Origin: Parabacteroides sp.
GTDB lineage: Bacteria > Bacteroidota > Bacteroidia > Bacteroidales > Tannerellaceae
Direction of reading: 5' to 3'
Length of the DNA: 40,965 bases
Assembly (NCBI GenBank): GCA_017481945.1
Contig: JAFUOJ010000030.1
Location: 1 to 40,965 of the forward strand
Below the pieces are notes generated by a model that saw nothing but the letters and a program-made list of their open reading frames with translations, searched no databases and was not told the DNA's origin. Of the stretch, positions 3,745 to 35,880 are shown piece after piece (position 1 is the stretch's first letter; the number at the start of each line of letters is the position of its first letter). The translations under genes and the position numbers were made by a program.

Positions 3745-5094
3745 ATGGCAAATATGATTAAGATTAAAAAGGGTTTAGACATTAATCTGAAGGGCAAAGC
3801 TTCGGATGTACTGTTAAATGGGGGCAAAAGTGATAGTTATGCTATCGTTCCCGATTATTATAACGGTATTATCCCTAAAGTTGTTGCTAAAGTAGGAGAA
3901 AAAGTCAAAGCAGGTTCTGTCTTGATGATTGATAAGAACCGCCCGGAAATCAAGTTTGTTTCGCCAGTTAGTGGCGAAGTTACTGCCGTAAATCGAGGAG
4001 AAAAGCGTAAGGTGCTTAGCATTGTTGTAAAGCCAGACGCTCAGATTGAGTATGAAGATTTCGGTAAAAAGAATGTGGCTTCTTTAAAAGGAGAAGAGGT
4101 AAAAGATGCTATTTTAAATGCAGGTATGTGGCCTTTTATCAAGCAACGTCCTTATGATATTGTTGCTTCTCCTGTGGAAACACCACGTGATATTTTTGTT
4201 TCTGCATTCTTTTCTGCTCCATTAGCTCCAAACTTTGATTTTATTGTAAAAGGTCAGGAAGCTGATTTCCAAACAGGTTTGGACGCACTTACTAAACTGA
4301 CAACAGGTAAAGTGTATGTGGGAATCCGTAAAGGATCTTCTGTTCGTGTGAATGGTGTAGAAACTGTGGAAGTAGAAGGACCACACCCTGCAGGGAATGT
4401 TGGTGTGCAGATCAACCAAATTAAGCCTGTTAATAAGGGAGAAGTTGTTTGGGTAGTAAATCCAACTGATGTAATTGTTATTGGACGTTTGTTTAATAAA
4501 GGAATCGCTGACTTTTCTCGTTTAGTGGTAATTACAGGTTCAGAGACTACAGAAAGAGGATATATTAAAACAATAGCAGGTTGTACGATTAATAGTTTAG
4601 TTGCTGGAAAGATTTTAGAAGGTAATGAAGCTGTTCGTATCATTAGCGGAAATGTTTTGACTGGAACAAAGGTTCAAAAAGAAGATTATTTAGGTGCTTA
4701 CGATAATCAGATTACTGTTATTCCAGAAGGTAATGAAACTAATGATTTCTTTGGTTGGGCAACACCAGGCTTTGGTAAATATAGTGTAAGTCATTCATTC
4801 CCGACTTGGTTAGTTGGTAAAAATAAAGAATATGTGATTGACGCACGTATCAAAGGTGGTAAACGTGCAATAATTATGTCCAATGAATATGATAGCGTAT
4901 TTCCGATGGATATTATGCCAGAATATTTATTGAAAGCAATAATTGCATTTGATATTGATAAGATGGAGAACTTGGGTATTTATGAAGTTGCTCCAGAAGA
5001 TTTTGCTCTTTGTGAATTTGTTGACACTTCTAAGATTGAGCTACAGAAAATAGTTCGTAATGGTCTGGATCTGTTATACAAGGAAATGAATTAA
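3745..5094 (+). CDS. nqrA: Na+-translocating NADH:quinone reductase subunit A
   Basis: This is the peripheral cytoplasmic subunit of Na+-NQR, the respiratory complex that oxidises NADH, reduces quinone and exports Na+. The frame encodes 449 residues, the normal family length, beginning MANMIKIKKGLDINLKG. The early segment FVSPVSGEVTAVNRGEKRKV is characteristic of NqrA and resembles the lipoyl-like fold of RnfC. I chose the ATG at 3745 because the promoter elements overlap the earlier ATG at 3697 and family members begin at this sequence. It is the first gene of a six-gene operon in the standard order A-B-C-D-E-F. In Bacteroidales, Na+-NQR links NADH oxidation to the menaquinone/fumarate respiratory chain. 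Confidence 0.95.
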   Translation: MANMIKIKKGLDINLKGKASDVLLNGGKSDSYAIVPDYYNGIIPKVVAKVGEKVKAGSVLMIDKNRPEIKFVSPVSGEVTAVNRGEKRKVLSIVVKPDAQIEYEDFGKKNVASLKGEEVKDAILNAGMWPFIKQRPYDIVASPVETPRDIFVSAFFSAPLAPNFDFIVKGQEADFQTGLDALTKLTTGKVYVGIRKGSSVRVNGVETVEVEGPHPAGNVGVQINQIKPVNKGEVVWVVNPTDVIVIGRLFNKGIADFSRLVVITGSETTERGYIKTIAGCTINSLVAGKILEGNEAVRIISGNVLTGTKVQKEDYLGAYDNQITVIPEGNETNDFFGWATPGFGKYSVSHSFPTWLVGKNKEYVIDARIKGGKRAIIMSNEYDSVFPMDIMPEYLLKAIIAFDIDKMENLGIYEVAPEDFALCEFVDTSKIELQKIVRNGLDLLYKEMN

Positions 5095-22578: not shown

Positions 22579-22668
22579 TTATTTAAATAAATTCTTTAGT
22601 TTCATATATTATAAAACTTCTATTTTATATATTATAAAACAGTTGTTTCATAATATATGAAACTTTTG
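22579..22668. repeat. Tandem near-palindromes with 23-base period upstream of the MgtC gene
   Basis: Three 19-base units start at 22599, 22622 and 22645, exactly 23 bases apart. The first reads GTTTCATATATTATAAAAC; the third is its inverted form with one change. A perfect 12-base palindrome (TTATTTAAATAA, 22579-22590) precedes them at about the same spacing. They fill the gap before the MgtC gene. Confidence 0.75.
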
Positions 22669-22692
22669 GTTTCTTGAAGATAAAAAAGAGAT

Positions 22693-23397
22693 ATGTTTGA
22701 ACAAATAAACGAAATACTGCATAGTACGGTTATTACACCTTATACCGCTGTACTCAAATTGTTGGTCAGTTTCCTCTTAGGAGCTACGATTGGTTGCGAG
22801 CGTCAATTCCGCAGAAGAGAGGCAGGAATGCGTACTTTTACGCTTATTTGTATGGGTTCGACTGCTGCTATGTTAGTTTCCATCTGGATTCCTCAGTGTT
22901 ATCCGGACTTTTTAAATGGAGATCCGGGGCGAATTGCAGCACAAGTTCTTTCCGGTATTGGCTTTTTAGGAGCAGGAGCTATCATTCAAAGTCATGGAAG
23001 TATACATGGATTGACGACAGCAGCCTGTATTTGGGTGATTGCAGTAATTGGTTTAGCGGTCGGAGCAGGGATGTATATTCCGGCGATTATAGTTACTTTT
23101 CTGACTCTTTTTATATTGATTAGTCTGGAATATGTAGAAAAGCGGATGTTTTTGAATGGAGTGAATAAAATTTTGACGATTACTTGTTCGACAGCGACCC
23201 CGGATTTAAAGGCCGTACGTAAGATATTAGAGGAAAAAGGTGTCTTTATTATGAGTGTTTCTTTTGAAGCTTTGTATCAAGAAGACAAGGCAATAATTAC
23301 TTATAAGGTGAATGTGAAGGCCATTTCTTCCTATACGAATCTATTTAATGCGATTCATGGATTAGGTTTTGTTTCGCAAATTAGATTGATGGCTTGA
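22693..23397 (+). CDS. MgtC/SapB family membrane protein
   Basis: The 234-residue protein has an N-terminal membrane domain of about five helices with the family signatures KLLVSFLLGATIGCERQFRR, EAGMRTFTLICMGSTAAML and LSGIGFLGAGAII, then LTTAACIWVIAVIGLAVGAG. A cytoplasmic C-terminal domain (about 155-234) resembles an ACT fold and ends IRLMA. MgtC proteins are linked to growth at low Mg2+ and, in Salmonella, to inhibition of the F-type ATPase. Whether that holds here is unknown. There is no mgtB P-type ATPase nearby. The stop codon lies within a terminator shared with the convergent gene. Confidence 0.88.
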   Translation: MFEQINEILHSTVITPYTAVLKLLVSFLLGATIGCERQFRRREAGMRTFTLICMGSTAAMLVSIWIPQCYPDFLNGDPGRIAAQVLSGIGFLGAGAIIQSHGSIHGLTTAACIWVIAVIGLAVGAGMYIPAIIVTFLTLFILISLEYVEKRMFLNGVNKILTITCSTATPDLKAVRKILEEKGVFIMSVSFEALYQEDKAIITYKVNVKAISSYTNLFNAIHGLGFVSQIRLMA

Positions 23398-23414
23398 ACC
23401 ATCAATCTAACTCT
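23381..23414. terminator. Bidirectional terminator hairpin containing both stop codons
   Basis: A perfect 12-base-pair stem pairs 23381-23392 (TTAGATTGATGG) with 23399-23410 around a 6-base loop. The MgtC stop (23395-23397) and the stop of the convergent gene (23402-23404) both lie in it. Confidence 0.75.
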
Positions 23415-23875
23415 CCTTTTAACATTTTTCCTGCAATACGGGCTGCTTCTTCGACAAGTACTACGCATGGGCGTTTCTTATAGTACTCTTTTGTCCGGAT
23501 TTCCGGAGATGGATTGGTGGAAGCTGCGTCAGTTGGCGATAGTAATTCGTGGCAAACGATAGAGCCATTTTTCTCTTTAAATAGATTAGCTACCTTTTGA
23601 ACCATTGCATAATTTCTCTTTCTTGCCTCCTGATTGCTTGTATCCGGGACCGGATATTTGAAGCCTGCCAGCATAGCCATTGCACTTACTGAGCCGCAAA
23701 CTTCACGCATACGTCCCATTCCTCCTCCAAAAGAGACGGACATATTCTTTGCCAGTTCGAAATCAATATTAAAGAGATCTGAATAAGCAAGAAATACAGA
23801 TTGGGCGCAATTATATCCGGATTTAAAATTCTGGATGGCCTGATTTACTCGCTCTTCTACATCAAATTCTTTCAT
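23402..23875 (-). CDS. C_GCAxxG_C_C family putative redox protein
   Basis: The 157-residue cytoplasmic protein matches the C_GCAxxG_C_C family, small proteins with conserved cysteines thought to bind metal or take part in redox chemistry. Visible signatures are SGYNCAQSVFLAY (C23), FGGGMGRMREVCG (C60), SIVCHELL and RPCVVLVEEAARIAGKML. The function is not established. It is the last gene of an operon with serB and the Dabb gene, on the same strand with short gaps. Confidence 0.8.
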   Translation of the reverse strand: MKEFDVEERVNQAIQNFKSGYNCAQSVFLAYSDLFNIDFELAKNMSVSFGGGMGRMREVCGSVSAMAMLAGFKYPVPDTSNQEARKRNYAMVQKVANLFKEKNGSIVCHELLSPTDAASTNPSPEIRTKEYYKKRPCVVLVEEAARIAGKMLKGELD

Positions 23876-23897
23876 TTGATACTCTTTTTATAAGGAA

Positions 23898-24200
23898 TTA
23901 AAACTCGTAATCGACGCAAGCTCTATCTGCTTTAACCGGGCCAATGATGTTCTTTGCCACAGCAACATGTTCAGGATGGTTGGCATACGTATTGACATCA
24001 GCCAAAGAATCCAATTCAGTCGTTAGGATAATGTCCCATGTTTCAGCCGGATTGATGTTGAAATCAAGGCGGATCATACGTAAAACATCTATTTTATTGA
24101 TTAAAGCTTCTAATGCAACTTTTATTTCTTGCATTTTAGCTTCTTTCGCAGCAGGAGTTTCAAACTCTTTCAGTTTGAACATAACAATGTGTCTAACCAT
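23898..24200 (-). CDS. Dabb (stress-responsive alpha/beta barrel) family protein
   Basis: The 100-residue protein begins MVRHIVMFKLKEF and continues LRMIRLDFNINPAETWDI, then YANHPEHVAVAKNIIGPVKA. This is the dimeric alpha/beta-barrel (Dabb) family, related to the plant stress protein SP1 and to some small cyclases. No catalytic role can be assigned. It lies between serB and the C_GCAxxG_C_C gene, 21 and 22 bases away, so all three are probably one transcript. Confidence 0.8.
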   Translation of the reverse strand: MVRHIVMFKLKEFETPAAKEAKMQEIKVALEALINKIDVLRMIRLDFNINPAETWDIILTTELDSLADVNTYANHPEHVAVAKNIIGPVKADRACVDYEF

Positions 24201-24221
24201 ATTCTTTTGTCCTTTTAGTTT

Positions 24222-25442
24222 TTATATATCCCAATAAGAATCTTTATATCCTAAGAAGTATAAAATACCGTCTAATCCGATAGTTGAGATGGATTGTTCG
24301 GCTGTTGCCTTCACTTTTGGCTTCGCATGGAACGCAATACCTAAGCCTGCTATGTTGATCATTGGCAAATCATTTGCTCCATCACCTACGGCAACTGTTT
24401 GACGAATATCTACATTTTCTACTTGAGCAATCAAACGAAGCAGTTCCGCTTTTCGTTTGCCGTCAACAATATCTCCTACGTGACGACCGGTCAATTTCCC
24501 GTTCTCAACTTCCAATTCGTTGGCATATACGTAGTCAATACCATATTTTTGTTTCAGATAATTCCCGAAATAGGTGAATCCACCCGATAGGATTGCAATT
24601 TTAAATCCTACCTTCTTTAAGATACGCATTAAGCGATCGACCCCTTCCGTAATAGGTAAATTTTCTGCTATTTCTTGCATAACAGAAACGTCTAACCCTT
24701 TCAATAGCGCACAACGTTGACGGAAGCTTTCGCAGAAGTCGATTTCTCCTCGCATAGCAGATTCGGTAATTGCCTTTACTTGATCCCCAACACCGGCACG
24801 TATTGCCAATTCATCGATTACTTCTGTTTTGATTAATGTTGAATCCATATCGAAACAAATTAAACGACGCATGCGGCGATACATATTCTCTTCTTGGAAA
24901 GAAATGTCGATTTCTTGCTCGGCAGAAAGTTTCATAAATGCGGCCTTCATCTGCTCTTTGTCCTTAGGAGTTCCTCGAACAGAGAACTCAACGCTGGCTT
25001 TAGGTGTGCGTTCGTTCTCATCTAAAGGGATACGTCCTGTCAAACGTTTAATATCATCTATGTTCAAATCTTGCTCTGCAATGATATGAGTTACGCCGGC
25101 AATTTGGCGAGCAGTCAGCTTACGGCCTAAAATAGTAATGATATATCGGTTTTTTCCTTGCATGGAAACCCATTCACTATATTCCTCTTCAGTGATAGGA
25201 TCAAAACGAATGTTTACCCCTAATTCATTACTTTTGAAAAGTAACTCTTTTAATATAGTGCCGGAAGTCCGTTCGCTTCCTTGAAATAAGATACCTAATG
25301 AAAGGTTACTATGAATGTTTACTAACCCGATATCTAAGATAGCGGCATTGTTTCGTGCTAATATTTCACAAAATGCGGCTGTAACTCCGGGGCGGTCTGT
25401 TCCATTAATATTAAGTAGAATAAGTTCGTCTTTTTGTTCCAT
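24222..25442 (-). CDS. serB: Phosphoserine phosphatase with N-terminal ACT domains
   Basis: SerB releases L-serine from phosphoserine, the last step of serine synthesis. The 406-residue protein has two ACT-type domains (about 6-85, with NGTDRPGVTAAFCEI, and 100-182) and a C-terminal HAD phosphatase with DMDST at 198-202 (nucleophile D198, acid/base D200), SGGFTYFG at 286-293 and GDGANDLPM at 353-361. The frame is open 55 codons further upstream, but I choose the ATG at 25442 because the family begins there and a TACCTTTG promoter box lies just upstream, inside that longer frame. The ACT domains suggest control by amino acids. It heads a three-gene operon. Confidence 0.93.
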   Translation of the reverse strand: MEQKDELILLNINGTDRPGVTAAFCEILARNNAAILDIGLVNIHSNLSLGILFQGSERTSGTILKELLFKSNELGVNIRFDPITEEEYSEWVSMQGKNRYIITILGRKLTARQIAGVTHIIAEQDLNIDDIKRLTGRIPLDENERTPKASVEFSVRGTPKDKEQMKAAFMKLSAEQEIDISFQEENMYRRMRRLICFDMDSTLIKTEVIDELAIRAGVGDQVKAITESAMRGEIDFCESFRQRCALLKGLDVSVMQEIAENLPITEGVDRLMRILKKVGFKIAILSGGFTYFGNYLKQKYGIDYVYANELEVENGKLTGRHVGDIVDGKRKAELLRLIAQVENVDIRQTVAVGDGANDLPMINIAGLGIAFHAKPKVKATAEQSISTIGLDGILYFLGYKDSYWDI

Positions 25443-25461
25443 ATCTTTATCTTTTGTGGAA

Positions 25462-25469
25462 CAAAGGTA
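25462..25469 (-). promoter_or_regulatory. serB operon -7 box
   Basis: The minus strand reads TACCTTTG, predicting a transcript start near 25455 and a very short leader before the serB ATG. This excludes the longer open frame as the start. Confidence 0.65.
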
Positions 25470-25704
25470 CATAAGATCTATACAAAAAACCATTGTTTCA
25501 ATAGGTAAAATGTAAAATTCTTCTTCTGAACTTGGTTGATTACCTTCTATAAGTGTTGCTTGCTTTCGACAATAGAGTCTATTTATTTGATGTAACAGGT
25601 TATACATCTTGTATAAACATGTTGAAAAACATGCTTTGATAACTGGATTTCATGCGATAAAACATATAAAAATACTTGCTTTTGTGAGAAAAAGTTTTCC
25701 GATG

Positions 25705-25737
25705 TTTGGAAGAAAAGTACTTTTTGTTGTATATTTG
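25705..25737 (+). promoter_or_regulatory. Promoter of the thioredoxin-fold gene
   Basis: TTTG at 25705-25708, a 21-base spacer and TATATTTG at 25730-25737 match the Bacteroidetes promoter well. The leader would be about 128 bases long and can form small hairpins (for example CCTGAAAATCAGG near 25796-25808). Nothing else is visible in the 430-base gap between serB and this gene. Confidence 0.65.
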
Positions 25738-25871
25738 CACCCGTTAAAAGCAAGTATAGTAAATCCTTAGCGAAGGAAAGAACACTTGTTATTTCCTGAA
25801 AATCAGGAGTCGGAACTTTTAAATCTGTGAGGAATGAATGTTTCGATTATGTTGAACATAAAAATGATGAT

Positions 25872-26372
25872 ATGAAGGTAAGAGCTTATGTTCTCTTAGT
25901 TATGGTGGCGCTTTTAGCAGTGGCAGCCGGAACAAAAAAAGCAAATCCAACAGAAGGTGTGAACCCTGGGGACCTTGCTCCGAGAATAGAGTTTTTAGGA
26001 AACGAAGAGGATTGTAGTTTCCAAAATCGTTCAGGACGTTACACTTTGCTCAACTTTTGGGCAGCTTATGATGCAGAATCAAGAGCCCGTAACGTTCAAT
26101 TATGGAATGAAGTAAACAAATGGAGTTCAGACAAAATTGCAATGTATTCCGTCTCTTTTGATGAAAAGGAGTCTATTTTTACAGAGACTGTGAAGACGGA
26201 TAAGTTAGAAGGAACTAAGCAATTTCATGAAGGACTCGGAAGAAAGTCAGAATTATTTGGGAAGTATCACTTACAAAAAGGATTCAGAAACTTCCTGATT
26301 GATGAGAATGGAGTGATTATTGCGGTCAATGTAACCTCCAAAGAGCTGACTAAAGTATTAGAAAGAATTTAA
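25872..26372 (+). CDS. Thioredoxin-fold exported protein lacking the CXXC motif
   Basis: From the ATG at 25872 the protein has 166 residues, with an N-terminal signal or anchor (VRAYVLLVMVALLAVAAG). The rest follows the TlpA/AhpC-like thioredoxin layout: GDLAPRIEFLGNEEDCSF, then RYTLLNFWAAYDAESRARNV, IAMYSVSFDEKESIF and GFRNFLIDENGVIIAV. Where redox-active members have WCxxC there is WAAYDAE, and the usual cis-proline before FLID is absent too. It is therefore unlikely to be a disulfide enzyme. A GTG at 25827, 15 codons upstream, is possible but places polar residues before the signal. The gene ends in a shared terminator. Confidence 0.75.
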   Translation: MKVRAYVLLVMVALLAVAAGTKKANPTEGVNPGDLAPRIEFLGNEEDCSFQNRSGRYTLLNFWAAYDAESRARNVQLWNEVNKWSSDKIAMYSVSFDEKESIFTETVKTDKLEGTKQFHEGLGRKSELFGKYHLQKGFRNFLIDENGVIIAVNVTSKELTKVLERI

Positions 26373-26390
26373 TCTGCTGATTATTATTAA

Positions 26391-26437
26391 ACGGGAGAGG
26401 CGATGTTCAAGCGAATATCGCCTCTCCTGTTTTTATA
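26391..26437. terminator. Intrinsic terminator, probably bidirectional
   Basis: The stem pairs 26391-26404 (ACGGGAGAGGCGAT) with 26417-26430 and has TTTTTAT on the plus side. It ends the thioredoxin-fold gene and lies just past the AraC pseudogene. Confidence 0.8.
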
Positions 26438-26442
26438 AGTTC

Positions 26443-26992
26443 TTAGTTGGAAGCTCTGTATCGGTTCGGAGTACAGCCTATTGTTTAGTAGTACTTTTAT
26501 ATTAGCTGCTACAAGCTGTTTCGTATGTTTATCTATATTTTGTTGTAACTCCTCCTGTATCTCGTGGAAACAGTTAATGATGATTTGTTGTTCTCGTTCA
26601 GACATGTGTAGGGCTTCATTGGAGGAATAAGAGAAGAAAGAATACTCCACAATTCGTTTACTCAAAGAAGTACCTCGCAGTAAATCGGGATGAAACATAA
26701 GGATCTATCCTTTAGGTTGATACGTTATACCGTTGTCATTGGCTCCGGCTATTTGCCCTGGTGCGATGAATACCAAAGTACCTTCTCGGTAGTCATATTT
26801 ATTACGTCCATAAAGAAGAGAACCACAGCTTAGTTGTTTTAAGAACACACAATAGAATCCGAATCTCTTTACACTATGACGAATCTCTTTTAAATCGGAC
26901 ATATTGACTACACTTATTAAAGGATGAAGCGTTTCAACTCCAAGCAAGTCGTTGTAATCCTGTACGGAATTAAGTTTAATGATTGTCTCCAT
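26443..26992 (-). pseudogene. AraC-family regulator remnant: nonsense codon plus deletion of the DNA-binding domain
   Basis: From ATG 26992 the first 95 codons encode the N-terminal cupin half of a Bacteroidales AraC regulator, ending PGQIAGANDNGITYQPKG. A TAG at 26702-26704 then stands where the family has W (PKG-W-ILMFHP), a single-base G to A change. The same frame continues with ILMFHPDLLRGTSLSKRIVE, through ANIKVLLN. There the helix-turn-helix domain, roughly 95-100 codons, is missing. The sequence jumps in another frame to GCTPNRYRASN and a stop at 26443-26445, which is the exact kind of C-terminus AraC proteins have. At least two lesions are therefore present. It diverges from the NTF2-like gene, which it may once have controlled. 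Confidence 0.85.
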
Positions 26993-27168
26993 GCTGATAG
27001 CTGTTTCTTTTTACAAAGGTATTATATTTGAGATGAAAGAAAATACCTGCTCTTTCGGAATAGGTAATTTATGTTTGAAAATAAGTAATTAAGGTATAGA
27101 ACGATAAGGATTCTTAGCTTATTTTTGTAGAACATTGGATTAACCATTTAATATTATACGTAATAGTC

Positions 27169-27672
27169 ATGAGAAAAAGTTTGATTTTATTGTTGGTATC
27201 TGTCATTTGTATGTCGGCAATGCCCGGTTTGAGTATGAAATGTTTGGCACAAGAGGCTAAATCGACTAAAGCTTCTTTTACAAAAGAGGAACAGGAGGTA
27301 ATAGATCTTTCCAGAGCTAAATGGCAATGGATGGCTGATAAGGAAGCAGATAAATTAGCAGATCTTTTCCATGAGAATGCCATTTTTGTTCACATGGGAG
27401 GTGCTTGGGGCAAGAAACAGGAGGTTGATATTATCCGAGGAGGTATGATTCATTATAAAAAAGCAGAGATTTTTGAAGAATCAGTTCGCTTTGCAGGAGA
27501 TAATACAGCGATCGTATTGGGAAAAATAAAGCTGATTGCCATTCTGGGAGGTAAGCATGAAGCTGTGAATCCTTTTTTAGTAACAGAAGTTTATGTGAAA
27601 GAGGGGAACCGTTGGAAGTTGGCTTCTCTATCTTTTACAAAGACAATGGAACGAAATGAGAATACTAAATAA
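27169..27672 (+). CDS. Exported NTF2-like (DUF4440/SnoaL-type) protein
   Basis: The 167-residue protein has a signal peptide (LILLLVSVICMSAMPGLSM, cleaved near CLAQ) and a single NTF2-like fold: EEQEVIDLSRAKWQWMADKE, LADLFHENAIFVHMGGAWG, AIVLGKIKLIAI and WKLASLSFTKT. Members of this fold include enzymes and small-molecule binders; the ligand cannot be read from the sequence. It is divergent from a broken AraC regulator, a common pairing in Bacteroidales, which suggests lost local regulation. A TATTTTTG at 27120-27127 could be its -7 box. Confidence 0.8.
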   Translation: MRKSLILLLVSVICMSAMPGLSMKCLAQEAKSTKASFTKEEQEVIDLSRAKWQWMADKEADKLADLFHENAIFVHMGGAWGKKQEVDIIRGGMIHYKKAEIFEESVRFAGDNTAIVLGKIKLIAILGGKHEAVNPFLVTEVYVKEGNRWKLASLSFTKTMERNENTK

Positions 27673-27755
27673 CCAACAATTATCATCAAGAACCTTCGTC
27701 GCTTTCTCTTTCATCCACTAAAAAACAGGATTGTTGTGCGACAAAAGTATTGGTA

Positions 27756-28033
27756 AGCGGTTAAAAATGGCTTCGTAGCCCTACGAAAGTCTTTTTAACC
27801 GCTTCGTGATATCTCCGTAGGCCTACGAAAGGACTTTCCACCGCTTGGTGGGAGTTTTGTAGGCCTACGTAGCTACTTTTTAGTGCTTCGTGGGACCTTC
27901 GTAGGGCTACAGAGGGACTTTTTAGTACTAAATAATACCATCGTAGGTCTACAAAAACCTTTTTTAGTGCTTGAAAATGGTTTTGTAGGCTTACGATGGC
28001 AATCCGAAGCGGTGGGAAGTTCCTCCGTAGGGA
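27756..28033. repeat. 42-base tandem repeat array with palindromic cores
   Basis: Seven units occur with the core GTAG starting at 27775, 27817, 27859, 27901, 27943, 27985 and 28027, every interval exactly 42 bases. The best core is the perfect palindrome CGTAGGCCTACG (27816-27827); the others vary at a few positions. A second dyad sits close to the half-period, for example TTTAGTACTAAA (27921-27932) and CCACC-GCTT-GGTGG (27838-27851). The array fills most of the gap between the NTF2-like gene and mutS2 and stops at the mutS2 stop codon. One plus-strand frame reads through part of it with a 14-residue period, but an early unit contains a stop. Confidence 0.85.
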
Positions 28034-30508
28034 TTATTCTAAATCAACTACCGTTATGCCGGCTCCTCCGAACTGTACATGCTCATCATGATAGCGTTGA
28101 ACGCCGGGAACACTGTGTAGATAGTCACGAATCAGCTGTCGAAGAATACCGGTTCCTGTCCCATGAAGGATACGAACTCGTGTCGCTCCGACCTGGATAG
28201 CGTCGTCAATGAAGTAGGTTACTGCCTGCAATGCTTCGTCACCTCGCATTCCTCTGACATCAATTTCTTGCTTGAAATGTATCTTCTTTTCGTGCATATC
28301 GTCCATAGTCTGGGCGCTGACGAAGGTACTTTTTTGAATTTCTTTCTTGATTTGCCCTTTGCTGACCTTCTCTAATAAATCTAATTTGACTGTACTTTTG
28401 ATCATACCGAAGGCGACAACTGCTTGTTTGCCTTGCAACTCCATGACAGTTCCGGCAGAGACTTGTCCTTTCAGTCGGACATTATCTCCAACCTCTATGA
28501 CGTCTCGATTAAACACTTGTTTGGTAGTCGGGGCCTGTTGTTTCTGCTTTTTACGCTCTTTGCGTTCCTGCAGTTTGGCCATTTTGCGAGCGATTTTGTT
28601 ATCCTCCTCTTCGGCAGAGATGACAGAGGCCTTAAATTCTTCCAGAGCCTGACGTGCCAGCTTGGTCTGTTCTTTTTCAGCTTGTGCCTCTTTGATTTCG
28701 CGGATGGTGTTTTCAATTTTGGCATTCGCTTGGGAGAGAATATGTTGTGCCTCCTCTTTAGCCGTCCGCATAATCTCCTTTCGTTCTTTATTGACCGCCT
28801 CCAAATCCTGTTCATAGTGGAGTGCAAGTGCTTCTAAGCGTTTCTCCTGCTGACGGATATTCTGTCGTTTGTTTTCCCAGTAACGTTTGTCGCGCACAAT
28901 ATCCTGCAGGTATTTGTCCATGTTGATATAATCCGCACCGACCTTTTCCGAAGCGTCTGCGATGACATCTTCCGGCAAACCGATTTTACGGGCGATTTCA
29001 ACAGCGAAGGAACTACCCGGATTTCCGATGGAAAGTTTGAATAGGGGCTGCATGAGATGGCGGTCATACAACATGGCACCGTTTACAACACCTACTGTCT
29101 CTTCTGCAAAATGCTTCAGATTCTGGTAGTGTGTTGTTATAACTCCATAGCTCTCTTTTCGGTTGAAGCGGTCTAAAAGAGCTTCGGCTATGGCTCCTCC
29201 GATTTGAGGTTCCGTACCGCTACCAAACTCATCAATGAGAATCAGCGTCTTGTTATTACAGTTTTTGACAAAATGCTTCATGTTTGTCAAGTGGGAACTG
29301 TAGGTACTAAGGTCGTTCTCAATACTCTGTTCGTCGCCGATGTCAATGAAAAGGTTTTCAAACAGTCCGGTTTTAGAACTTTCATAAACAGGAATCAGCA
29401 GACCGCATTGCAACATGTATTGCAACAGACCTACCGTCTTTAAGCAGACTGATTTCCCTCCAGCGTTTGGACCGGAAATAATCAGCAAACGTTTTTTCCC
29501 TCCTAATGTAATATCTAAAGGAACGATTTTCTTGTTCTGTCTCTGTAAAGAGAGGAAGAGCAGGGGGTGAGAAGCTTGAACCCAGTCGACCTGCTGCTTG
29601 TTTTCGACGGTCGGCTTGATTCCATTAATCTGTCCTGCGAATAGCGCTTTGGCGCGAATGAAATCGATGTCCGCCAAAAACTCATACGACTGCAAAATAT
29701 CGGGAATCAACGGGCGCACGAAGTTTGTGAATTCGGTCAGAATCCGCATGATCTCCCTTCGTTCGTCTCCTTCTAACTCACGAATGCGATTGTTGGCCTC
29801 TACAACTACTTCCGGCTCAATGAAAACGGTCTTTCCGCTGGCCGATTCATCGTGCACGATTCCTTTAATCTTTCGTTTGAAGGCCGGAATGACCGGAATC
29901 ATTAAGCGACCGTCACGCATGGTCGGGGTAACGTCTTTATCGACCACCCCTTCGGATTGAGCTGTACGCAGAATGGATTGCAAGCTGCGGGAAATACCGC
30001 TCATCGTGATAGTAATCTCTCGACGTATCTGTGAAAGTGTAGGAGAGGCGTTGTCTTTGATTCGCCCGAACTTGTCTAAAATGGCGTCAATCTTTCCGAT
30101 GAGTTGCGGGAATACAAGGATATTTCCGGCGAGGGCTGTCAACGCCGGATAGTGTATCTCCCCTTCGTCGGACGAAGGACGAAAGAAGCGGACGATGTCA
30201 TTGATGGTTTGGAGCGAACGTTTGAGGTCAAAAAGCTCCTTTTCATCCAACCAAGTACCTTCGGGACGGATTCGCTTCAATGAATAGCGGACGTCGAAGA
30301 AGTAATTGGCAGGAAATTCCTCTTCACCCTGTAGAATACGGACAAACTCGTCGGTTTGTTCGAGACGTTCCATGACGGTTGGATAGTCGGTAGAGAAATC
30401 CATCTCCGTCACTCGTTCTTTACCCAGTGGGCTTAAACACTTTTCGGCAATTAAAAGACGGACTTTGTCGAAGCCCGTCTTTTGTTCAAAATTATGTGGA
30501 TATATCAC
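28034..30508 (-). CDS. mutS2: MutS2-family ATPase/endonuclease
   Basis: The 824-residue protein has the MutS core ATPase with Walker A GPNAGGKS (346-353) and Walker B LILIDEFGSGTEP (422-434). A long coiled-coil (about 520-640) follows, then a KOW-like segment (VIEVGDNVRLKGQVSAGTVM) and a C-terminal Smr nuclease domain (about 745-824) with DVRGMRGDEAL and HGTGTGILRQ. The mismatch-recognition domain of MutS is absent. MutS2 has been linked to suppression of recombination and, in Bacillus, to splitting collided ribosomes. It begins 15 bases after the upstream PDZ gene and is probably co-transcribed with it. Its base composition is richer in G+C than the genes on either side. Confidence 0.93.
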   Translation of the reverse strand: MIYPHNFEQKTGFDKVRLLIAEKCLSPLGKERVTEMDFSTDYPTVMERLEQTDEFVRILQGEEEFPANYFFDVRYSLKRIRPEGTWLDEKELFDLKRSLQTINDIVRFFRPSSDEGEIHYPALTALAGNILVFPQLIGKIDAILDKFGRIKDNASPTLSQIRREITITMSGISRSLQSILRTAQSEGVVDKDVTPTMRDGRLMIPVIPAFKRKIKGIVHDESASGKTVFIEPEVVVEANNRIRELEGDERREIMRILTEFTNFVRPLIPDILQSYEFLADIDFIRAKALFAGQINGIKPTVENKQQVDWVQASHPLLFLSLQRQNKKIVPLDITLGGKKRLLIISGPNAGGKSVCLKTVGLLQYMLQCGLLIPVYESSKTGLFENLFIDIGDEQSIENDLSTYSSHLTNMKHFVKNCNNKTLILIDEFGSGTEPQIGGAIAEALLDRFNRKESYGVITTHYQNLKHFAEETVGVVNGAMLYDRHLMQPLFKLSIGNPGSSFAVEIARKIGLPEDVIADASEKVGADYINMDKYLQDIVRDKRYWENKRQNIRQQEKRLEALALHYEQDLEAVNKERKEIMRTAKEEAQHILSQANAKIENTIREIKEAQAEKEQTKLARQALEEFKASVISAEEEDNKIARKMAKLQERKERKKQKQQAPTTKQVFNRDVIEVGDNVRLKGQVSAGTVMELQGKQAVVAFGMIKSTVKLDLLEKVSKGQIKKEIQKSTFVSAQTMDDMHEKKIHFKQEIDVRGMRGDEALQAVTYFIDDAIQVGATRVRILHGTGTGILRQLIRDYLHSVPGVQRYHDEHVQFGGAGITVVDLE

Positions 30509-30523
30509 GTTATGTAGCTACTA

Positions 30524-31942
30524 TTATTTGATTTCGACTGTCATAGACCGACGGATAGTCGGGCGAACGATGAATTCCATTTCGTTCTTACCTCTCTTTA
30601 CCTTGAATGTACAAGCATTATTGCCTGACGGATTGATATACGGTGCATAATAATATAGGTAAGAGAAGACTGTTTTATTACCAGGCTTTTGGAAAGCTTC
30701 TGCGATTTGCGGATAGCTGAATGTGTCCCAGAACATACAACGTTTAAAACCGTTCGCGTCAGTAAAAATACTTTTCGGATCACGATATTGCATGGTGTTA
30801 GTAATAAAACCTTTGTAGGCAGCTGTCAATTCCTCTGCCGTATTGTCTAATTTATGGTCGTTGATTCTATCAATAACATCATTTGGACGAAGACCGGCTT
30901 CGTAGGCAGGAGAGTTCTTATCAACATCCGTAATCAACTCCATCCGGTCAATGTCGTAATTAATACCTGTGTAATTATAGTTTTTAGCACTGACTTTGAA
31001 CGGTACGCGACGCTGGTATTGAACGTAAGGATATTGCATACACATCAACGGAGCATGAATCCGAGCATAATCATCCAAATGATAAGAGCTTTCTAACAAC
31101 TCATTGGCTTCACATTCCCACAAAATACGTCCCGGAACCTCTTTTTGGTCAATCAGACGGAAACCAAACTGAAGAAGATACTCAGCTTCAGCCTCTGCAG
31201 CTGTTGGGCTAAGGAAGGGGAACGGTTCCATCTTACTGTGTAGGAAGTTGTAGCGGTAAGTAGGCTCTTTCTCTACCAATATTTTATTCGCACCCTTGTA
31301 ATTGGGGTTCTTATCGAAGAAATAGAACGTTTGGATCAAGATGTCCGGGTTGTCGATGTCGACAGACATTCCTTTCTTAGTCAATTCTTTCTCTATACTT
31401 TCGTTAATTGTAGTTTCGAGTTCGCTGTTGTTCTCGTCGATGGCAGAGAAAGCAAATGTTTCGAACTTCCCGAAGTCAACAGGGTCACTTGTTACGGTTG
31501 TCTTAAACGGACAGGTGAATTCGCGTTCACTGGTAGTCTCTAAACTATACATAGAAAAAGCGGTTGCCAACTGATCTTCTGTGATGGCATTACTTTTTTT
31601 ACACTCTTTCTTGATCAAAATCTGTTTCGCTGGATTTTTTAGATTACCGATTGTGAGAGTCATCTCTGTTTTACCTGCCAAATTAAGCATTTGATCGACC
31701 TCTTCCCGAGAAAGTTCGGAAGTTTGGATATCATCAATGGCAATAATCACGTCATTCATTTTGATACCGACAAGTTCAGCGGGAGAATAGGGGATAATAT
31801 TTGTGATAACAGGGCGTCCAATTCCCCATTGAGTGTTTTTACTGATATCATATTTAATTCCTAATCGACAAATTTTCCGGTTCTGAGCAAAACCAGTAAA
31901 ACATGCAAGTAGCAATAAAACGGACCAAATCGCTTTCTTCAT
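30524..31942 (-). CDS. Exported protein with PDZ, DUF4136-like and PDZ domains
   Basis: The 472-residue protein has a signal peptide (MKKAIWSVLLLLACFTGFAQ). Residues about 40-100 form a PDZ domain (IGRPVITNIIPYSPAELVGI, MNDVIIAIDDI). Residues about 150-300 resemble DUF4136 (VDFGKFETFAFSAI, NPDILIQTFYFFDKNP). Residues about 335-460 form a second PDZ-like domain (ITDVDKNSPAYEAGLRPNDV). There is no protease domain, so it may be a scaffold or an envelope-stress factor. It leads a transcript with mutS2. A TACCTTTG box at 32010-32017 on the minus strand is its likely promoter. Confidence 0.75.
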   Translation of the reverse strand: MKKAIWSVLLLLACFTGFAQNRKICRLGIKYDISKNTQWGIGRPVITNIIPYSPAELVGIKMNDVIIAIDDIQTSELSREEVDQMLNLAGKTEMTLTIGNLKNPAKQILIKKECKKSNAITEDQLATAFSMYSLETTSEREFTCPFKTTVTSDPVDFGKFETFAFSAIDENNSELETTINESIEKELTKKGMSVDIDNPDILIQTFYFFDKNPNYKGANKILVEKEPTYRYNFLHSKMEPFPFLSPTAAEAEAEYLLQFGFRLIDQKEVPGRILWECEANELLESSYHLDDYARIHAPLMCMQYPYVQYQRRVPFKVSAKNYNYTGINYDIDRMELITDVDKNSPAYEAGLRPNDVIDRINDHKLDNTAEELTAAYKGFITNTMQYRDPKSIFTDANGFKRCMFWDTFSYPQIAEAFQKPGNKTVFSYLYYYAPYINPSGNNACTFKVKRGKNEMEFIVRPTIRRSMTVEIK

Positions 31943-32009
31943 AATCTATTCTTATTGTTTTATTAATCTTTATTGTTCCTGTTCGGATGGTGAATCCTCT
32001 TTTATTACA

Positions 32010-32017
32010 CAAAGGTA
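32010..32017 (-). promoter_or_regulatory. -7 box of the PDZ gene and mutS2
   Basis: TACCTTTG on the minus strand lies about 70 bases before the PDZ-protein start. No perfect -33 element is visible. Confidence 0.55.
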
Positions 32018-32172
32018 AAGATATTTTTGTTCCCTATGAACAAGTTGGCAGCATATTTGATGTTATATAGGTGAAGGATACAAGTTGAAAAACTATAAAA
32101 GATAGATGTAGATAGAAGAATAACTTGGTATCTTATTGACAATTAGGTAATAATAAAAATATAAAATAGATT

Positions 32173-32775
32173 ATGGACAAGAAGGATTTGAATAGCAAGA
32201 ACGAAACTGGCAGTAAAAACGAAAATATAAATGTCGACGAAGCGACAAATTTACAGGAAGAACAGCCAAATGTGTCAGCTGAAAATACAGAGTCTGACAA
32301 TGTGGCGGAAGAAAATGCTGAGCAGAATGAGTTAGAAGAACTTAAAAAGAAGTATAATGAGTTGAATGATTCTCATTTACGCTTAATGGCTGAATTTGAC
32401 AATTATCGCAAGCGTACTTTGCGTGAAAAGTCAGAGCTGATTAAGAATGGAGGCGAAAATGCTTTAAGTAATCTACTCCCTGTTGTGGATGATTTTGAAC
32501 GTGCATTGCAGAATCTTCGTACGGCAGAAGATATAAAGGCTGTCAATGAAGGAGTAGAATTGATCTATTCTAAATTCATGTCTTATTTGTCACAGCAAAA
32601 TGTAAAGCCAATTGAAACTGTCGGTAAGCCATTTGACGCAGAAACCTCTGAAGCTGTCGCTTTAATCCCTGCTCCGGACGCAGATATGAAAGGGAAGGTT
32701 CTGGATTGTGTACAAACAGGTTATACCTTAAATGAAAAGGTAATCCGACATGCTAAAGTAGTTGTTGGAGAATAA
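32173..32775 (+). CDS. grpE: Nucleotide exchange factor GrpE
   Basis: GrpE releases ADP from DnaK in the Hsp70 cycle. The 200-residue protein has an acidic, disordered N-terminus (about 1-50) followed by the long dimerising helix (ELEELKKKYNELNDSHLRLM, then EFDNYRKRTLREKSELIKNG). The beta-domain has the family signature GKPFDAETSEAVALIP and ends GYTLNEKVIRHAKVVVGE. It lies 45 bases before dnaJ, the usual Bacteroidetes pair. dnaK is elsewhere. I could not recognise a clear promoter in the 230-base gap upstream. Confidence 0.95.
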   Translation: MDKKDLNSKNETGSKNENINVDEATNLQEEQPNVSAENTESDNVAEENAEQNELEELKKKYNELNDSHLRLMAEFDNYRKRTLREKSELIKNGGENALSNLLPVVDDFERALQNLRTAEDIKAVNEGVELIYSKFMSYLSQQNVKPIETVGKPFDAETSEAVALIPAPDADMKGKVLDCVQTGYTLNEKVIRHAKVVVGE

Positions 32776-32820
32776 GAATTGTTAGAATAGCAGCAAATAA
32801 CAACAGAGGCAGATACAAAC

Positions 32821-33975
32821 ATGGCAAAGAGAGATTATTATGAAGTACTGGGTGTTGAAAAGAATGCTTCAACAGATGAAATAAAAAAGGCTTATCGAAA
32901 AAAAGCAATTCAATTCCATCCAGATAAGAATCCGGGAGATAAACAGGCAGAAGAAAACTTTAAAGAAGCAGCAGAAGCCTATGACGTATTAAGTGACCCA
33001 CAAAAACGTCAGCGATACGATCAATTTGGTCATGCAGGAGTCGGAGGTGCTTCTCAAGGAGGTGGCTTTGGCGGAGGAATGTCAATGGATGATATTTTCT
33101 CTCAATTCGGAGATATTTTTGGAGGACACTTTGGAGGATTTGGTGGCTTCGGCGGATTTGGTGGTTCACGAGGTGGACGCCGTGTAAATCGGGGTTCGGA
33201 TCTACGGGTGAAGGTTAAACTAAGCCTGAAAGATATTGCGACAGGAGTTGAAAAGAAGATTAAGGTAAAGAAATATGTAACTTGTTCTAAGTGTCATGGT
33301 AGCGGGGCAGAAGATGATCACAGCTCAAAGACATGCGATACTTGTCATGGTAGCGGTGTTGTCACACGCGTAACCAATACTATTTTAGGACAAATGCAGA
33401 CTCAATCTCCTTGTCCGACTTGTAATGGAGAAGGAAAGATTATTACAAAGAAATGTTCTGAATGTAACGGGGAAGGTATCGTTCGTGACGACGAAGTCAT
33501 TACAATCAATATCCCTGCCGGAGTTGCAGAAGGTATGCAACTTTCGATGAGTGGAAAAGGAAATGCAGCTCGCCGCGGAGGTATAAACGGTGACTTATTA
33601 ATTTTAATAGAAGAGGAACCACATCCGGAATTGATTCGTGATGAAAATGATCTTTTATATAACCTATTATTAAGTGTGCCGCAAGCTGCTTTAGGAGGAA
33701 CGGTAGAAGTTCCAACAATTGACGGAAAAGTAAAAGTCAAAATAGAACCGGGAACACAGCCTGGTAAAGTCTTACGTCTACGCAATAAAGGTCTGCCTTC
33801 TGTTAATAGCTATGGAACAGGTGACCTATTAGTCAATGTAAGCGTTTATATTCCGGAAAACTTATCTTCATCTGAAAAAGATATTTTGAATGGTTTGGAA
33901 AACTCTCCAAACTTTCAACCGAAAAAATCAGTAAAAGATAAAATCTTTGATAAGTTCAGACGTATGTTTGATTAA
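32821..33975 (+). CDS. dnaJ: Chaperone protein DnaJ
   Basis: DnaJ delivers clients to DnaK and stimulates its ATPase. The 384-residue type I protein has an intact J-domain (1-70) with HPD at 33-35, a glycine/phenylalanine-rich linker (about 75-125), and a zinc domain with four CxxCxGxG repeats ([32 protein letters not shown]; about 150-225). Substrate-binding C-terminal domains follow. All motifs are conserved, and the length is normal. It is transcribed with grpE, and a strong terminator follows the stop. Confidence 0.96.
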
Positions 33976-33992
33976 ACCTATCTCAGGAATAA

Positions 33993-34039
33993 AAGAAAAG
34001 TCCTTTCTACCTCAATTATAGAAAGGACTTTTTCTTTTG
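33993..34039 (+). terminator. dnaJ intrinsic terminator
   Basis: The stem (AAAAGTCCTTTCTA, 33996-34009, with 34019-34032) ends in TTTTTCTTTT. It begins about 20 bases after the dnaJ stop. Confidence 0.8.
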
Positions 34040-34057
34040 TAATAACTTATATAAAAC

Positions 34058-34093
34058 AAAAAAGGTTCAGAAAATAATTTCTGAACCTTTTTT
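34058..34093 (-). terminator. tRNA operon terminator
   Basis: The perfect 16-base-pair stem pairs 34058-34073 with 34078-34093 (AAGGTTCAGAAA with its complement). It is rich in T on the minus strand and lies just past tRNA-Tyr. Confidence 0.75.
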
Positions 34094-34094
34094 G

Positions 34095-34177
34095 TGGGCA
34101 GTGATGGATTCGAACCACCGAAGGCGAAAGCCAGCTGAGTTACAGTCAGCCCCATTTGGCCACTCTGGTAACTGCCC
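34095..34177 (-). tRNA. tRNA-Tyr (anticodon GTA)
   Basis: On the minus strand the 83-base sequence starts GGGCAGT and ends ACTGCCC plus A, forming a 7-base-pair acceptor stem. The anticodon loop CTGTAAC gives GTA. A long variable arm (GCTGGCTTTCGCCTTCGG region) marks a class II tRNA, as expected for Tyr, and GGTTCGAATCC is the T-loop. CCA is not encoded. It lies 7 bases after tRNA-Thr. Confidence 0.95.
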
Positions 34178-34184
34178 CCATTTG

Positions 34185-34258
34185 AGCCTCTTGTCGGATT
34201 CGAACCAACGACCCCGAGATTACAAATCACGTGCTCTGGCCAACTGAGCTAAAGAGGC
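34185..34258 (-). tRNA. tRNA-Thr (anticodon TGT)
   Basis: The 74-base minus-strand sequence has acceptor arms GCCTCTT and AAGAGGC, D-arm AGCTCAGTTGGCCAGAGC, anticodon loop TTTGTAA (TGT) and T-loop GGTTCGAATCC. It heads a two-tRNA transcript with tRNA-Tyr. Confidence 0.95.
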
Positions 34259-34298
34259 ATTCTTTTTTGTTATTATCAATCTCTCTCGATTGCGGTTG

Positions 34299-34306
34299 CA
34301 AAGGTA
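34299..34306 (-). promoter_or_regulatory. -7 box of the tRNA-Thr/Tyr operon
   Basis: The minus strand reads TACCTTTG about 40 bases upstream of tRNA-Thr, directed into the tRNA pair. Confidence 0.6.
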
Positions 34307-34493
34307 CGCTTTATTTTTAATTATGCAACTGTTTCCTGGAAAAATAATTTCATTTTTTTTGAGCCTTTGTAGGCAGATTTCCTTTAAAAAATTACCTCCG
34401 AGGCAATTAGCAGTTCCCCCGGAGGCTGATAATTTTTCTCAAAATATAATTCTTGGATGTTTTTTAGTTGTCTAACGCTCTTTTGAACAGATT

Positions 34494-35084
34494 TTATTTC
34501 TTGCTTCCGTTGAATCTTTGGCTTACAATGTCCCAATCGACAATCTTCCATAGCGCATTTAGATGATCCGGACGTCTGTTTTGATAATCTAAATAATAGG
34601 CATGTTCCCAAACGTCAAAGCCCAGTAGCGGACTCAAGCCATGTACGACGGGATTACTTCCGTTGATTTCTTTTGTAATGACAAGCTCGCCATGTTTGTC
34701 CTTAGATAGCCATACCCAGCCTGAACCGAACAATTCCGTCCCTGCCTTTACAAACTCTTTCTGGAAGTTTTCAAAGGAACCCCAGCCCTTGTTGATTGCT
34801 TCGGCAAGTGCTCCGGTCGGTCTGCCACCGCCATAAGGCGAAAATTGAGTGAAATACATATTATGGTTGAGTGTCTGCCCTGCATTATTAAAAAGAGCCC
34901 CATCAGCCTGTGCGACGATCTCTTTCAATGTTTTATTCTCAAAAGGAGTCCCCTGAATCAATTTATTCAGGTTATTTACATACGTCTGTAGATGTTTACC
35001 ATGATGAAACTCGATGGTCTCTTTTCCAATGGTTGGCTCCAATGCGTCAGGCGCATAGGGGAGTTGAATTAATTCAAATTTCAT
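34494..35084 (-). CDS. sodB: Superoxide dismutase, Fe/Mn type
   Basis: This enzyme converts superoxide to oxygen and hydrogen peroxide. From the ATG at 35084 it has 196 residues, with all four metal ligands: H27 (EFHHGKHLQTY), H74 (NHNMYF), D157 and H161 (FDVWEHAYYLDYQNRRP). The length and the ligand spacing match the Fe/Mn family, and in gut Bacteroidales such enzymes can often use either metal. The frame is open 26 codons further upstream with a hydrophobic stretch that looks like a signal peptide, but family members begin at MKFELIQLPYAPDALEP-like sequences, so I take the internal start. Confidence 0.93.
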   Translation of the reverse strand: MKFELIQLPYAPDALEPTIGKETIEFHHGKHLQTYVNNLNKLIQGTPFENKTLKEIVAQADGALFNNAGQTLNHNMYFTQFSPYGGGRPTGALAEAINKGWGSFENFQKEFVKAGTELFGSGWVWLSKDKHGELVITKEINGSNPVVHGLSPLLGFDVWEHAYYLDYQNRRPDHLNALWKIVDWDIVSQRFNGSKK

Positions 35085-35201
35085 GACTTCTTCTTTTTTA
35101 TTTGTTAATTGATTGCTACTATCTGTTGTCAGCAACAAAAGACTGAGGCATAATGTCAGCATGATTCATTCGTTTTTCTTTCTAACATTCAGGGGCTATT
35201 C

Positions 35202-35235
35202 TTTGTTCAACTTTCAACTATTTTCCCTATTTTCG
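35202..35235 (+). promoter_or_regulatory. Possible promoter of the 116-residue gene
   Basis: TTTG at 35202-35205 and TATTTTCG at 35228-35235 (22-base spacer) resemble the Bacteroidetes promoter with one mismatch. Confidence 0.4.
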
Positions 35236-35259
35236 CTCACGAATATTAATCGATACACT

Positions 35260-35610
35260 ATGACAACTATTCAGAAGACATTGGCAGAGCTGCCAGAGGA
35301 GAAGAAAGCCCTATTTGCTCCTGTTTTTGGAGATATAGATAAATTTTACACAACTGTTTATCTGATTGCTCGTAATGAGCACGTGACAGACCAGGAGAAG
35401 CCTGACCGTTACGAAGATCGTCTGCAAGTCATTCGCCAGATTCGCAACAAGGTAGAAAAGTTGGTTGATTCCTTTGGTTTGGAAGGATCCGAGATTGTAG
35501 CGGATATTGCCAGTGATTATTTTGAAGACTTTGTTAATTACAAAGAACCGGAGATTTCCCTCACGAATGAAGAATTCATCGGGATTATTCAGAAGATTTC
35601 AAGAACGTAG
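35260..35610 (+). CDS. Small cytoplasmic protein of unknown function
   Basis: From the ATG at 35260 the product has 116 residues and no signal peptide or membrane segment. It is acidic and probably helical (MTTIQKTLAELPEEKKALF, then RLQVIRQIRNKVEKLVDSFG and IASDYFEDFVNYKEPEI). I do not recognise a family. The open frame extends upstream to 35113, but that part is hydrophobic, low in quality and would overlap the 5' end of sodB on the other strand. A possible promoter at 35202-35235 fits the later start. A 41-base repeat array follows its stop. Confidence 0.65.
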   Translation: MTTIQKTLAELPEEKKALFAPVFGDIDKFYTTVYLIARNEHVTDQEKPDRYEDRLQVIRQIRNKVEKLVDSFGLEGSEIVADIASDYFEDFVNYKEPEISLTNEEFIGIIQKISRT

Positions 35611-35636
35611 GAAAAAGCAAAGAATAAGTTCTACTG

Positions 35637-35880
35637 TTTTCCAGCCTCCTGAAAAGTCCGAAACGATTTGAAAAGTGTTTTCCAGCTCCTGGAAAGCACT
35701 TTTTTGTTTTCAAAAATGATTTCCAGGGTCTGGAATTGATTTTTCAGTTTTCAAAAGTGTTTTCCAGCTGCTGGAATTGATTTTTGAAAAGTGAAAAACG
35801 TTTTCCAGGAGCTGGAAAAGACTTTTGGGTTCTTGAAAAAGATTTCCAGCGGCTGGAAATTATTTTTTGAAAATCTTATG
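35637..35880. repeat. 41-base tandem repeat array with palindromic cores
   Basis: The core TTTCCAG-NNN-CTGGAAA recurs six times. Its CCAG starts at 35641, 35682, 35723, 35764, 35805 and 35846, always exactly 41 bases apart; the first copy is degenerate. The three central bases vary (CTC, GGT, CTG, GAG, CGG). Near the half-period lies a second, A/T dyad such as TTTTG-TTTT-CAAAA (35702-35715). A 41-base period cannot keep a reading frame, so this is not a repeated protein. Confidence 0.88.

Follow-up and report, generated by a model that had tools for sequence, protein, structure and literature searches.

Results

Three intergenic palindrome arrays on one Parabacteroides contig

The DNA analysed here (the window) is a stretch of 40,965 nucleotides from a Parabacteroides sp. 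(assembly GCA_017481945.1, contig JAFUOJ010000030.1), contig 22 among the 45 of a draft genome of 2.79 Mb (genome G000). It carries three arrays of tandem dyads (palindromes), all without an assigned strand. The long open reading frames (ORFs) of the window contain none of them; all three are intergenic. The first, a 23-bp array (22579..22670), lies between a GH36 alpha-galactosidase gene (20372..22555, plus strand) and an MgtC family gene (22693..23397, plus strand). The second, a 42-bp array (27771..28000), occupies a convergent intergenic region between a DUF4440/SnoaL-like gene (27169..27672, plus strand) and mutS2, encoding MutS2 (28034..30508, minus strand). The third, a 41-bp array (35637..35873), is bordered on the left by an ORF without a Pfam match and with an uncertain start (35113..35610, plus strand), and on the right by a pyruvate formate lyase-like gene (36146..38584, plus strand). 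An Rfam scan of the window returned nothing at the arrays, its sole matches above gathering score being two tRNA genes on the minus strand at 34095-34258.

The 42-bp array is built of six cores of the CGTAGG-CCTACG type, whose GTAG...CTAC motifs start at 27775, 27817, 27859, 27901, 27943 and 27985, giving five 42-bp steps, all exact (Tandem Repeats Finder (TRF) period 42, score 112). In the 41-bp array, five exact TTCCAGnnnCTGGAA cores at 35680, 35721, 35762, 35803 and 35844 are separated by four 41-bp steps, again all exact, and a sixth, degenerate core can be read one period upstream at 35639 (TRF score 176). A previous sequence-only reading had proposed that these two longer arrays alternate the core with a second dyad near the half period. 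This is clear for the 41-bp family, where a T5...A5 dyad has four positions paired in 76-94% of cases, and only partial for the 42-bp array, where reading by eye gives CCACC-GCTT-GGTGG and TTAGTACTAA. The 23-bp array is the weakest of the three, being AT-only and missed by our array detector, and was entered into the analysis by hand. Its four dyads, 23-23.5 bp apart, are centred at 22584.5, 22608, 22631 and 22654, with half-step dyads at 22619.5, 22642.5 and 22666.

The number of dyads by itself is only moderately unusual: the three intergenic regions hold 5, 3 and 6, numbers matched by 4/500, 19/500 and 8/500 first-order Markov shuffles of each region. Chance is excluded for the window arrays by their period, since 713,818 bp of sequence, the window among them, yielded no array in any of five shuffles searched at periods of 14-70 bp. 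The three arrays are thus real and intergenic, with six 42-bp and five 41-bp cores exactly on period. Their cores differ from one another, as had been claimed, but the 27.8-kb and 35.7-kb ones each recur beyond their own locus. Three places of the window genome hold paired 42-bp cores (the 27.8-kb locus and two more), and six hold 41-bp (TTCCAG) core pairs, 22 pairs in all, with a spacer of 26 nt in 21 and 25 nt in one.

Arrays across the genus fall into two period bands

A scan independent of sequence looked for three or more similar dyads in a chain, with periods anywhere between 12 and 120 bp. Stretches of 11 Parabacteroides genomes (998,383 bp, without the window) gave 39 array rows with modal periods of 21 (8), 22 (8), 23 (8), 40 (3), 41 (6), 42 (4), 46 (1) and 82 bp (1), the last two representing every second unit. 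A further 400 kb of one of these genomes, G034 (2 of 20 stretches chosen for known hits), gave 26 rows at 21 (5), 23 (2), 40 (1), 41 (10), 42 (5), 83 (2) and 84 bp (1). All 65 rows therefore have periods of 21-23 or 40-42 bp, or their doubles. No array was found in 21 genomes of other Bacteroidales families (323,442 bp) or in 300 kb of E. coli. Other genera of the Tannerellaceae (19 genomes, 320,099 bp) gave four rows, among them one with a 63-bp step inside a 901-aa ORF of genome G019, excluded from the array set described below. Within the genus, genome G022 showed no array in the only 4 kb sampled. The arrays are a strong excess over shuffles and over the other bacteria sampled.

Removing rows with periods above 45 bp (every second unit) and rows of a second dyad in the same array left 60 non-overlapping arrays with 254 units, 3 to 9 per array, at periods of 21 (14), 22 (7), 23 (11), 40 (2), 41 (16) and 42 bp (10). 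By origin, 34 are from G034, eight from G000 (two in the window), seven from G039, eight from five other genomes of the genus and three from other genera. Their cores fall into about 45 families, 38 of them met once in the sample; the clustering divided one 21-bp family in two and may have lumped a few unlike cores together. The search irrespective of sequence that the sequence-only reading had suggested thus bears it out on several counts: the rows concentrate at 21-23 and 40-42 bp or their doubles, with none in the shuffles, the other families or E. coli, and the arrays are intergenic and share their geometry over many distinct cores. Neither a lack of excess nor a single known repeat family was found, the core families being many and Rfam giving no match at the window arrays.

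Spacing is rigid while sequence diverges

Of the 194 steps in the 60 arrays, 186 are modal and the other 8 are off by 1, the largest jitter that the detector tolerates. The 28 long arrays have a mean dyad pairing of 0.86 at the core, 0.48-0.54 exactly at the half period and about 0.25 (0.19-0.35) elsewhere, and can be read as half-units of about 20.5 bp, alternately inverted. Neighbouring dyads of unlike sequence are also commonest at a distance of 20-21.5 bp (11 pairs, 0 in the shuffle); other 2-bp bins hold 0-9 pairs, the second highest being 52-53.5. Mosaic elements, in which two unlike dyads are joined at a 21-bp step, were found at six places in G034 and one in G039. Repeats of ATGCCTAnnnAAACTTCC with a 22-bp step adjoin mosaic 21-bp dyad elements in two species (L183:11191-11248, L112:5351-5404).

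In arrays of at least five units, identity between units is 0.87-0.89 in the cores and 0.71-0.74 in the spacers. The proposal of variable spacers holds in this relative sense only: they vary, but they are homologous, with 0.743 identity between adjacent units (71 pairs) and 0.713 between others (125 pairs). Length is stricter than sequence. In the TTCCAG family, 17 distinct 26-nt spacers with a mean identity of 56% differ by at least 110 substitutions and zero length changes, and all 47 spacers of TTCCAG core pairs, found in six of 59 family genomes, measure 25-27 nt where 12-40 were permitted. Single TTCCAG core pairs at 41-bp spacing were also noticed in L065, L068 and L069, three records whose titles place them outside Bacteroidota (Chelativorans, Geminicoccaceae and Cognatishimia), and may be chance. 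Changes within dyads are often compensated: among 1755 dyad cells, which are not independent events and come from a detector that prefers paired units, 34 were altered on both sides yet paired and 5 were altered on both sides and unpaired.

These figures bear on the strongest rival to a functional reading, namely that replication or repair duplicates half-units of about 10.5-11.5 or 20.5 bp, in tandem or by foldback, with palindromes arising through template switching and no function for the host. Inverted half-units made by foldback would be symmetric about the core as well as the half period, as the long arrays are, and the homology of spacers across units (0.74 adjacent, 0.71 non-adjacent) agrees with it as well. 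However, adjacent units are scarcely more similar than distant ones, and spacers at 56% identity without any change in length are unexpected for a purely neutral array. We regard fixed-step copying as rather unlikely on balance.

The same step occurs in repeats without palindromes

Surveys with TRF and of exact 7-mer lags, both of which ignore dyads, gave the same bands. In the genus stretches, TRF reported 113 intergenic repeats with a period of at least 17 bp, distributed over 17-19 (5), 20-24 (55), 25-39 (0), 40-46 (39), 47-79 (0) and 80 bp or more (14); 23 repeats in called coding sequence fell into the same six bands as 7, 12, 2, 0, 1 and 1. Exact 7-mer lags over 54 kb of intergenic G034 DNA peak at 41 (729), 42 (428), 22 (286), 23 (178) and 21 (154), against 103 for lags 25-38 pooled. 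Other genera of the family peak at 20-23 and 42-44, and genomes G014 and G029 show small peaks at 21-22 and 42-44. Other families gave 122 at 20-24 vs 86 at 25-38, and E. coli 28 vs 35. That the step is common to repeats without a significant dyad again favours fixed-step copying.

Some repeats with these or nearby steps are worth recording. Non-palindromic tandem arrays with the motif TTTATAACTATAA or its complement and a step of about 22 bp recur at several sites of G034 and G039 (L188:5734-5820, L107:19519-19593, L189:6511-6569, L180:17447-17502, L193:1591-1643 and 4237-4290, L109:184-235, L182:1877-1926). A direct repeat resembling ACACAGATGACACAGATTTAACAGATGACCACAGATTT, with a 19-bp step, is dispersed over three places of G034 (L178:12258, L188:4030, L189:16474).

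Dispersed elements and comparison of loci

Some core families are dispersed as multicopy elements. Three of 38 genomes carry a four-unit element with a 21-bp step, in 17, 9 and 13 copies; every copy measures exactly 80 bp although 70-90 bp were permitted. Its outer units are near-perfect palindromes, while the inner two carry mismatches of a single polarity per element. Seven copies were compared (L103:3292, L104:13701, L129:2339, L178:5384, L180:8811 and L194:7429, with L107:8929 in a divergent region), and the polarity of the inner mismatches fits the direction of the genes at five of the six usable loci. By eye, some flanks of these copies look inverted.

Such elements raise the possibility that the arrays are dispersed, non-autonomous mobile elements resembling miniature inverted-repeat transposable elements (MITEs) or repetitive extragenic palindromes (REPs), moved by a transposase whose substrate would be the regular dyads. 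The multicopy, uniform 80-bp element with its inverted-looking flanks, the mosaics of G034 and G039 and the TTCCAG arrays at six places of the window genome all speak for it, and the dispersal of fixed four-unit elements is at the same time awkward for fixed-step copying. On the other hand, the Y1 transposase PF01797 (RAYT, IS200/IS605) is missing from 7 of 8 array-bearing genomes of the genus, G039 being the one that has it; moreover, 38 of the 45 core families are single in the sample and unit number varies from 3 to 9. Mobility as a general explanation is thus improbable. A plasmid or phage origin was rejected as well: no match to the 42-bp or 41-bp window array was found in plasmid sequences, nor to the 21-bp element in phage sequences.

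Two sets of equivalent loci were compared. Of 30 loci behind rho (from 38 genomes searched; in two, the downstream sequence was shorter than 300 bp), 3 have arrays. Their cores are unrelated to one another, the step is 41 bp in each, and the units number 7, 7 and 6; TRF found weaker 21-23-bp repeats in several further rho loci. By tblastn, none of the other 29 loci shares its far-side gene with G000. In G039, a long imperfect inverted repeat (AAGACGCGGAG...CTCCGCGTCTT) lies between rho and the 41-bp array (L255:3400-3640). Near mutS2 the comparison is weak, with the following gene differing in most species: an array was detected at 1 of 30 loci (G000), and TRF added two repeats close to mutS2, one of 42 bp in L228 and one of 22 bp in L226.

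The arrays are probably DNA rather than RNA elements

The sequence-only reading had offered mRNA-end structures as one possible identity, and strings of hairpins at transcript ends could indeed stop transcription or protect mRNA. The window arrays fold as RNA far beyond shuffles (z -11.4, -9.6 and -4.6), as expected because arrays of palindromes must fold. The fit of inner-mismatch polarity to gene direction in the four-unit family also speaks for this idea, as does gene context. The 60 arrays comprise 36 in same-strand, 10 in convergent and 7 in divergent contexts, with 7 left unassigned; the 53 placed ones are distributed 68/19/13% over same-strand, convergent and divergent regions vs 60/17/23% of intergenic bases. 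Divergent regions are therefore somewhat under-represented (7/53, 13%, vs 23%), and one of the seven is the 41-bp window array, mislabelled when our codon-usage gene caller missed the ORF to its left.

Against a role in RNA, neither strand is favoured in the mismatches of same-strand contexts (19 of the G-U type vs 15 of the A-C type, no excess of G-U). Same-strand arrays also sit at a median of 127 bp after the upstream stop and 146 bp before the downstream start, with no preference for 3' ends. Between rho and the array of genome G140, reading by eye shows that a terminator-like hairpin, complete with T run, is already present. Hairpins in RNA would furthermore leave the step of 21-23 or 40-42 bp unexplained. 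Given the lack of strand asymmetry and of a preference for 3' ends, and the hairpin ahead of the G140 array, the arrays are most likely DNA-level elements, with an RNA role possible for single families; mRNA-end structure, for which gene orientation and mismatch type gave no support, is disfavoured, and as a general account it is the least probable of those considered.

Relation to known systems

As far as its published description goes, the nearest relative is BrickBuilt of Porphyromonas gingivalis, an intergenic 23-nt minisatellite within a MITE with leader and tail, forming one family in one species (PMC4596501). By this description it has in common with some of the arrays intergenic tandem repeats of 23 nt, and it has a variable unit number, predicted long stem loops and a host from a related Bacteroidales family. 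BrickBuilt is described as a single sequence family with a leader, a tail, small inverted-repeat ends and no spacers, whereas the arrays here comprise about 45 cores in 60 arrays, with 21-23 and 40-42-bp steps in several genera. Set beside it by description, the BrickBuilt-like period of 23 bp occurs in 11 of the 60 arrays, the rest having 21, 22 or 40-42 bp.

REPs and the bacterial interspersed mosaic elements (BIMEs) that they compose are likewise regularly spaced intergenic palindromes in alternating orientation (PMC2817692, PMC3733652). Like them, our arrays are intergenic, regularly spaced and of alternating symmetry, with dispersed copies. As these sources define them, REPs have a common sequence tagged with GTAG or CGTC and rely on RAYT, and neither feature was encountered: only 4 of 60 arrays show such a tag close to the core in half or more of their units, and PF01797, present in 8 of 38 genomes of the genus, is missing from 7 of the 8 sampled ones that bear arrays. 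REP/RAYT membership was rejected. CRISPR arrays, as defined in PMC3733652, have a comparable regular repeat-spacer layout and some dyad symmetry. They too were rejected: here an entire unit is just 21-42 bp and the spacers are homologous within an array (identity 0.71-0.74) rather than unrelated.

Within the literature covered, which left out most subscription journals, we found no account of such arrays in Parabacteroides. Ordinary bacterial minisatellites, or variable number tandem repeats (VNTRs), are short tandem repeats with a variable unit number. Our arrays resemble them in both respects and differ in that their intergenic periods are confined to two narrow bands and in having dyads at the core and the half period. 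We file them as a variant of intergenic palindromic or minisatellite repeats; a class defined by geometry only may be new in kind.

Discussion

Taken together, the data lead us to propose that the property conserved in these elements is spacing, and that a factor docks repeatedly on the intergenic DNA and acts on its packing or topology; we give this reading a probability of roughly 40%. Mechanistically, each array would present a site about every two helical turns, either directly (the 21-23-bp step of short arrays) or through two alternating dyads about 20.5 bp apart that would make up the 40-42-bp unit of long ones. The array would then form a track for repeated docking, along one face of the helix, of an oligomeric factor that binds or wraps DNA, possibly a nucleoid protein or else a topoisomerase, for instance gyrase; the core letters would be exchangeable. 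The bound factor would pack or relax the intergenic DNA, as suggested for REP/BIME arrays. On this basis we infer that the step is kept by selection rather than by a copying mechanism, and that a protein reads it.

Several observations favour spacing as the conserved property. The step is discrete and its length rigid despite the divergence of the spacers, with a dyad exactly at the half period. The rho arrays of three species combine unrelated cores with the same 41-bp step, and none of the 113 intergenic tandem repeats (period at least 17 bp) falls at 25-39 or 47-79 bp. The compensation within dyads and the overall absence of RNA-strand asymmetry point in the same direction; the intergenic position, the many cores and the dispersed copies were likewise observed.

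Other results weigh against a spacing code read by a protein. No single helical repeat has both 22 and 41 bp as multiples, and a three-turn class (31-33 bp) is absent; fixed-step copying explains neither. No reader protein was found, RAYT being the only one searched for. Two genomes of the genus, G014 (96 kb) and G029 (140 kb), had no array in the scan, and the detector is biased towards paired, evenly spaced units. Of the 1755 dyad cells, 92 were altered on one side only. Finally, the arrays are often palindromic, as the sequence-only reading had it, but the step does not need dyads: a consensus dyad reached p<=0.05 in only 38 of 94 repeats in the two bands (20/55 at 20-24, 18/39 at 40-46), by a test of low power notably for short units, and clearly non-palindromic 22-23-bp arrays occur, such as repeats of TATAACTATAA. 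The dyads may thus be secondary to the step.

The proposal of one class of element whose sequence drifts while its geometry is kept is supported in part: one class with a shared geometry fits the data, but drift is only part of the account, as several cores are dispersed families of many copies. A broader claim, that Parabacteroides possesses machinery which reads or keeps two-turn sites and would let unrelated palindromes, and some motifs without a palindrome, replace one another at a step of 21-23 or 20.5 bp, is one that we advance more tentatively still. If true, a genome like G034 would carry a sequence-free intergenic code at possibly 200 sites, a number extrapolated from 34 arrays in 540 kb of that genome (2 of 27 stretches chosen for known hits).

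Bacterial intergenic repeats such as REP, ERIC, BOX and MITEs are usually defined by their sequence, and a class defined by spacing only would therefore escape similarity-based repeat finders. If the step results from a copying mechanism, the arrays would expose a fixed-length duplication process; if instead the geometry is selected, they would point to an as yet unknown DNA-reading process in common gut bacteria.

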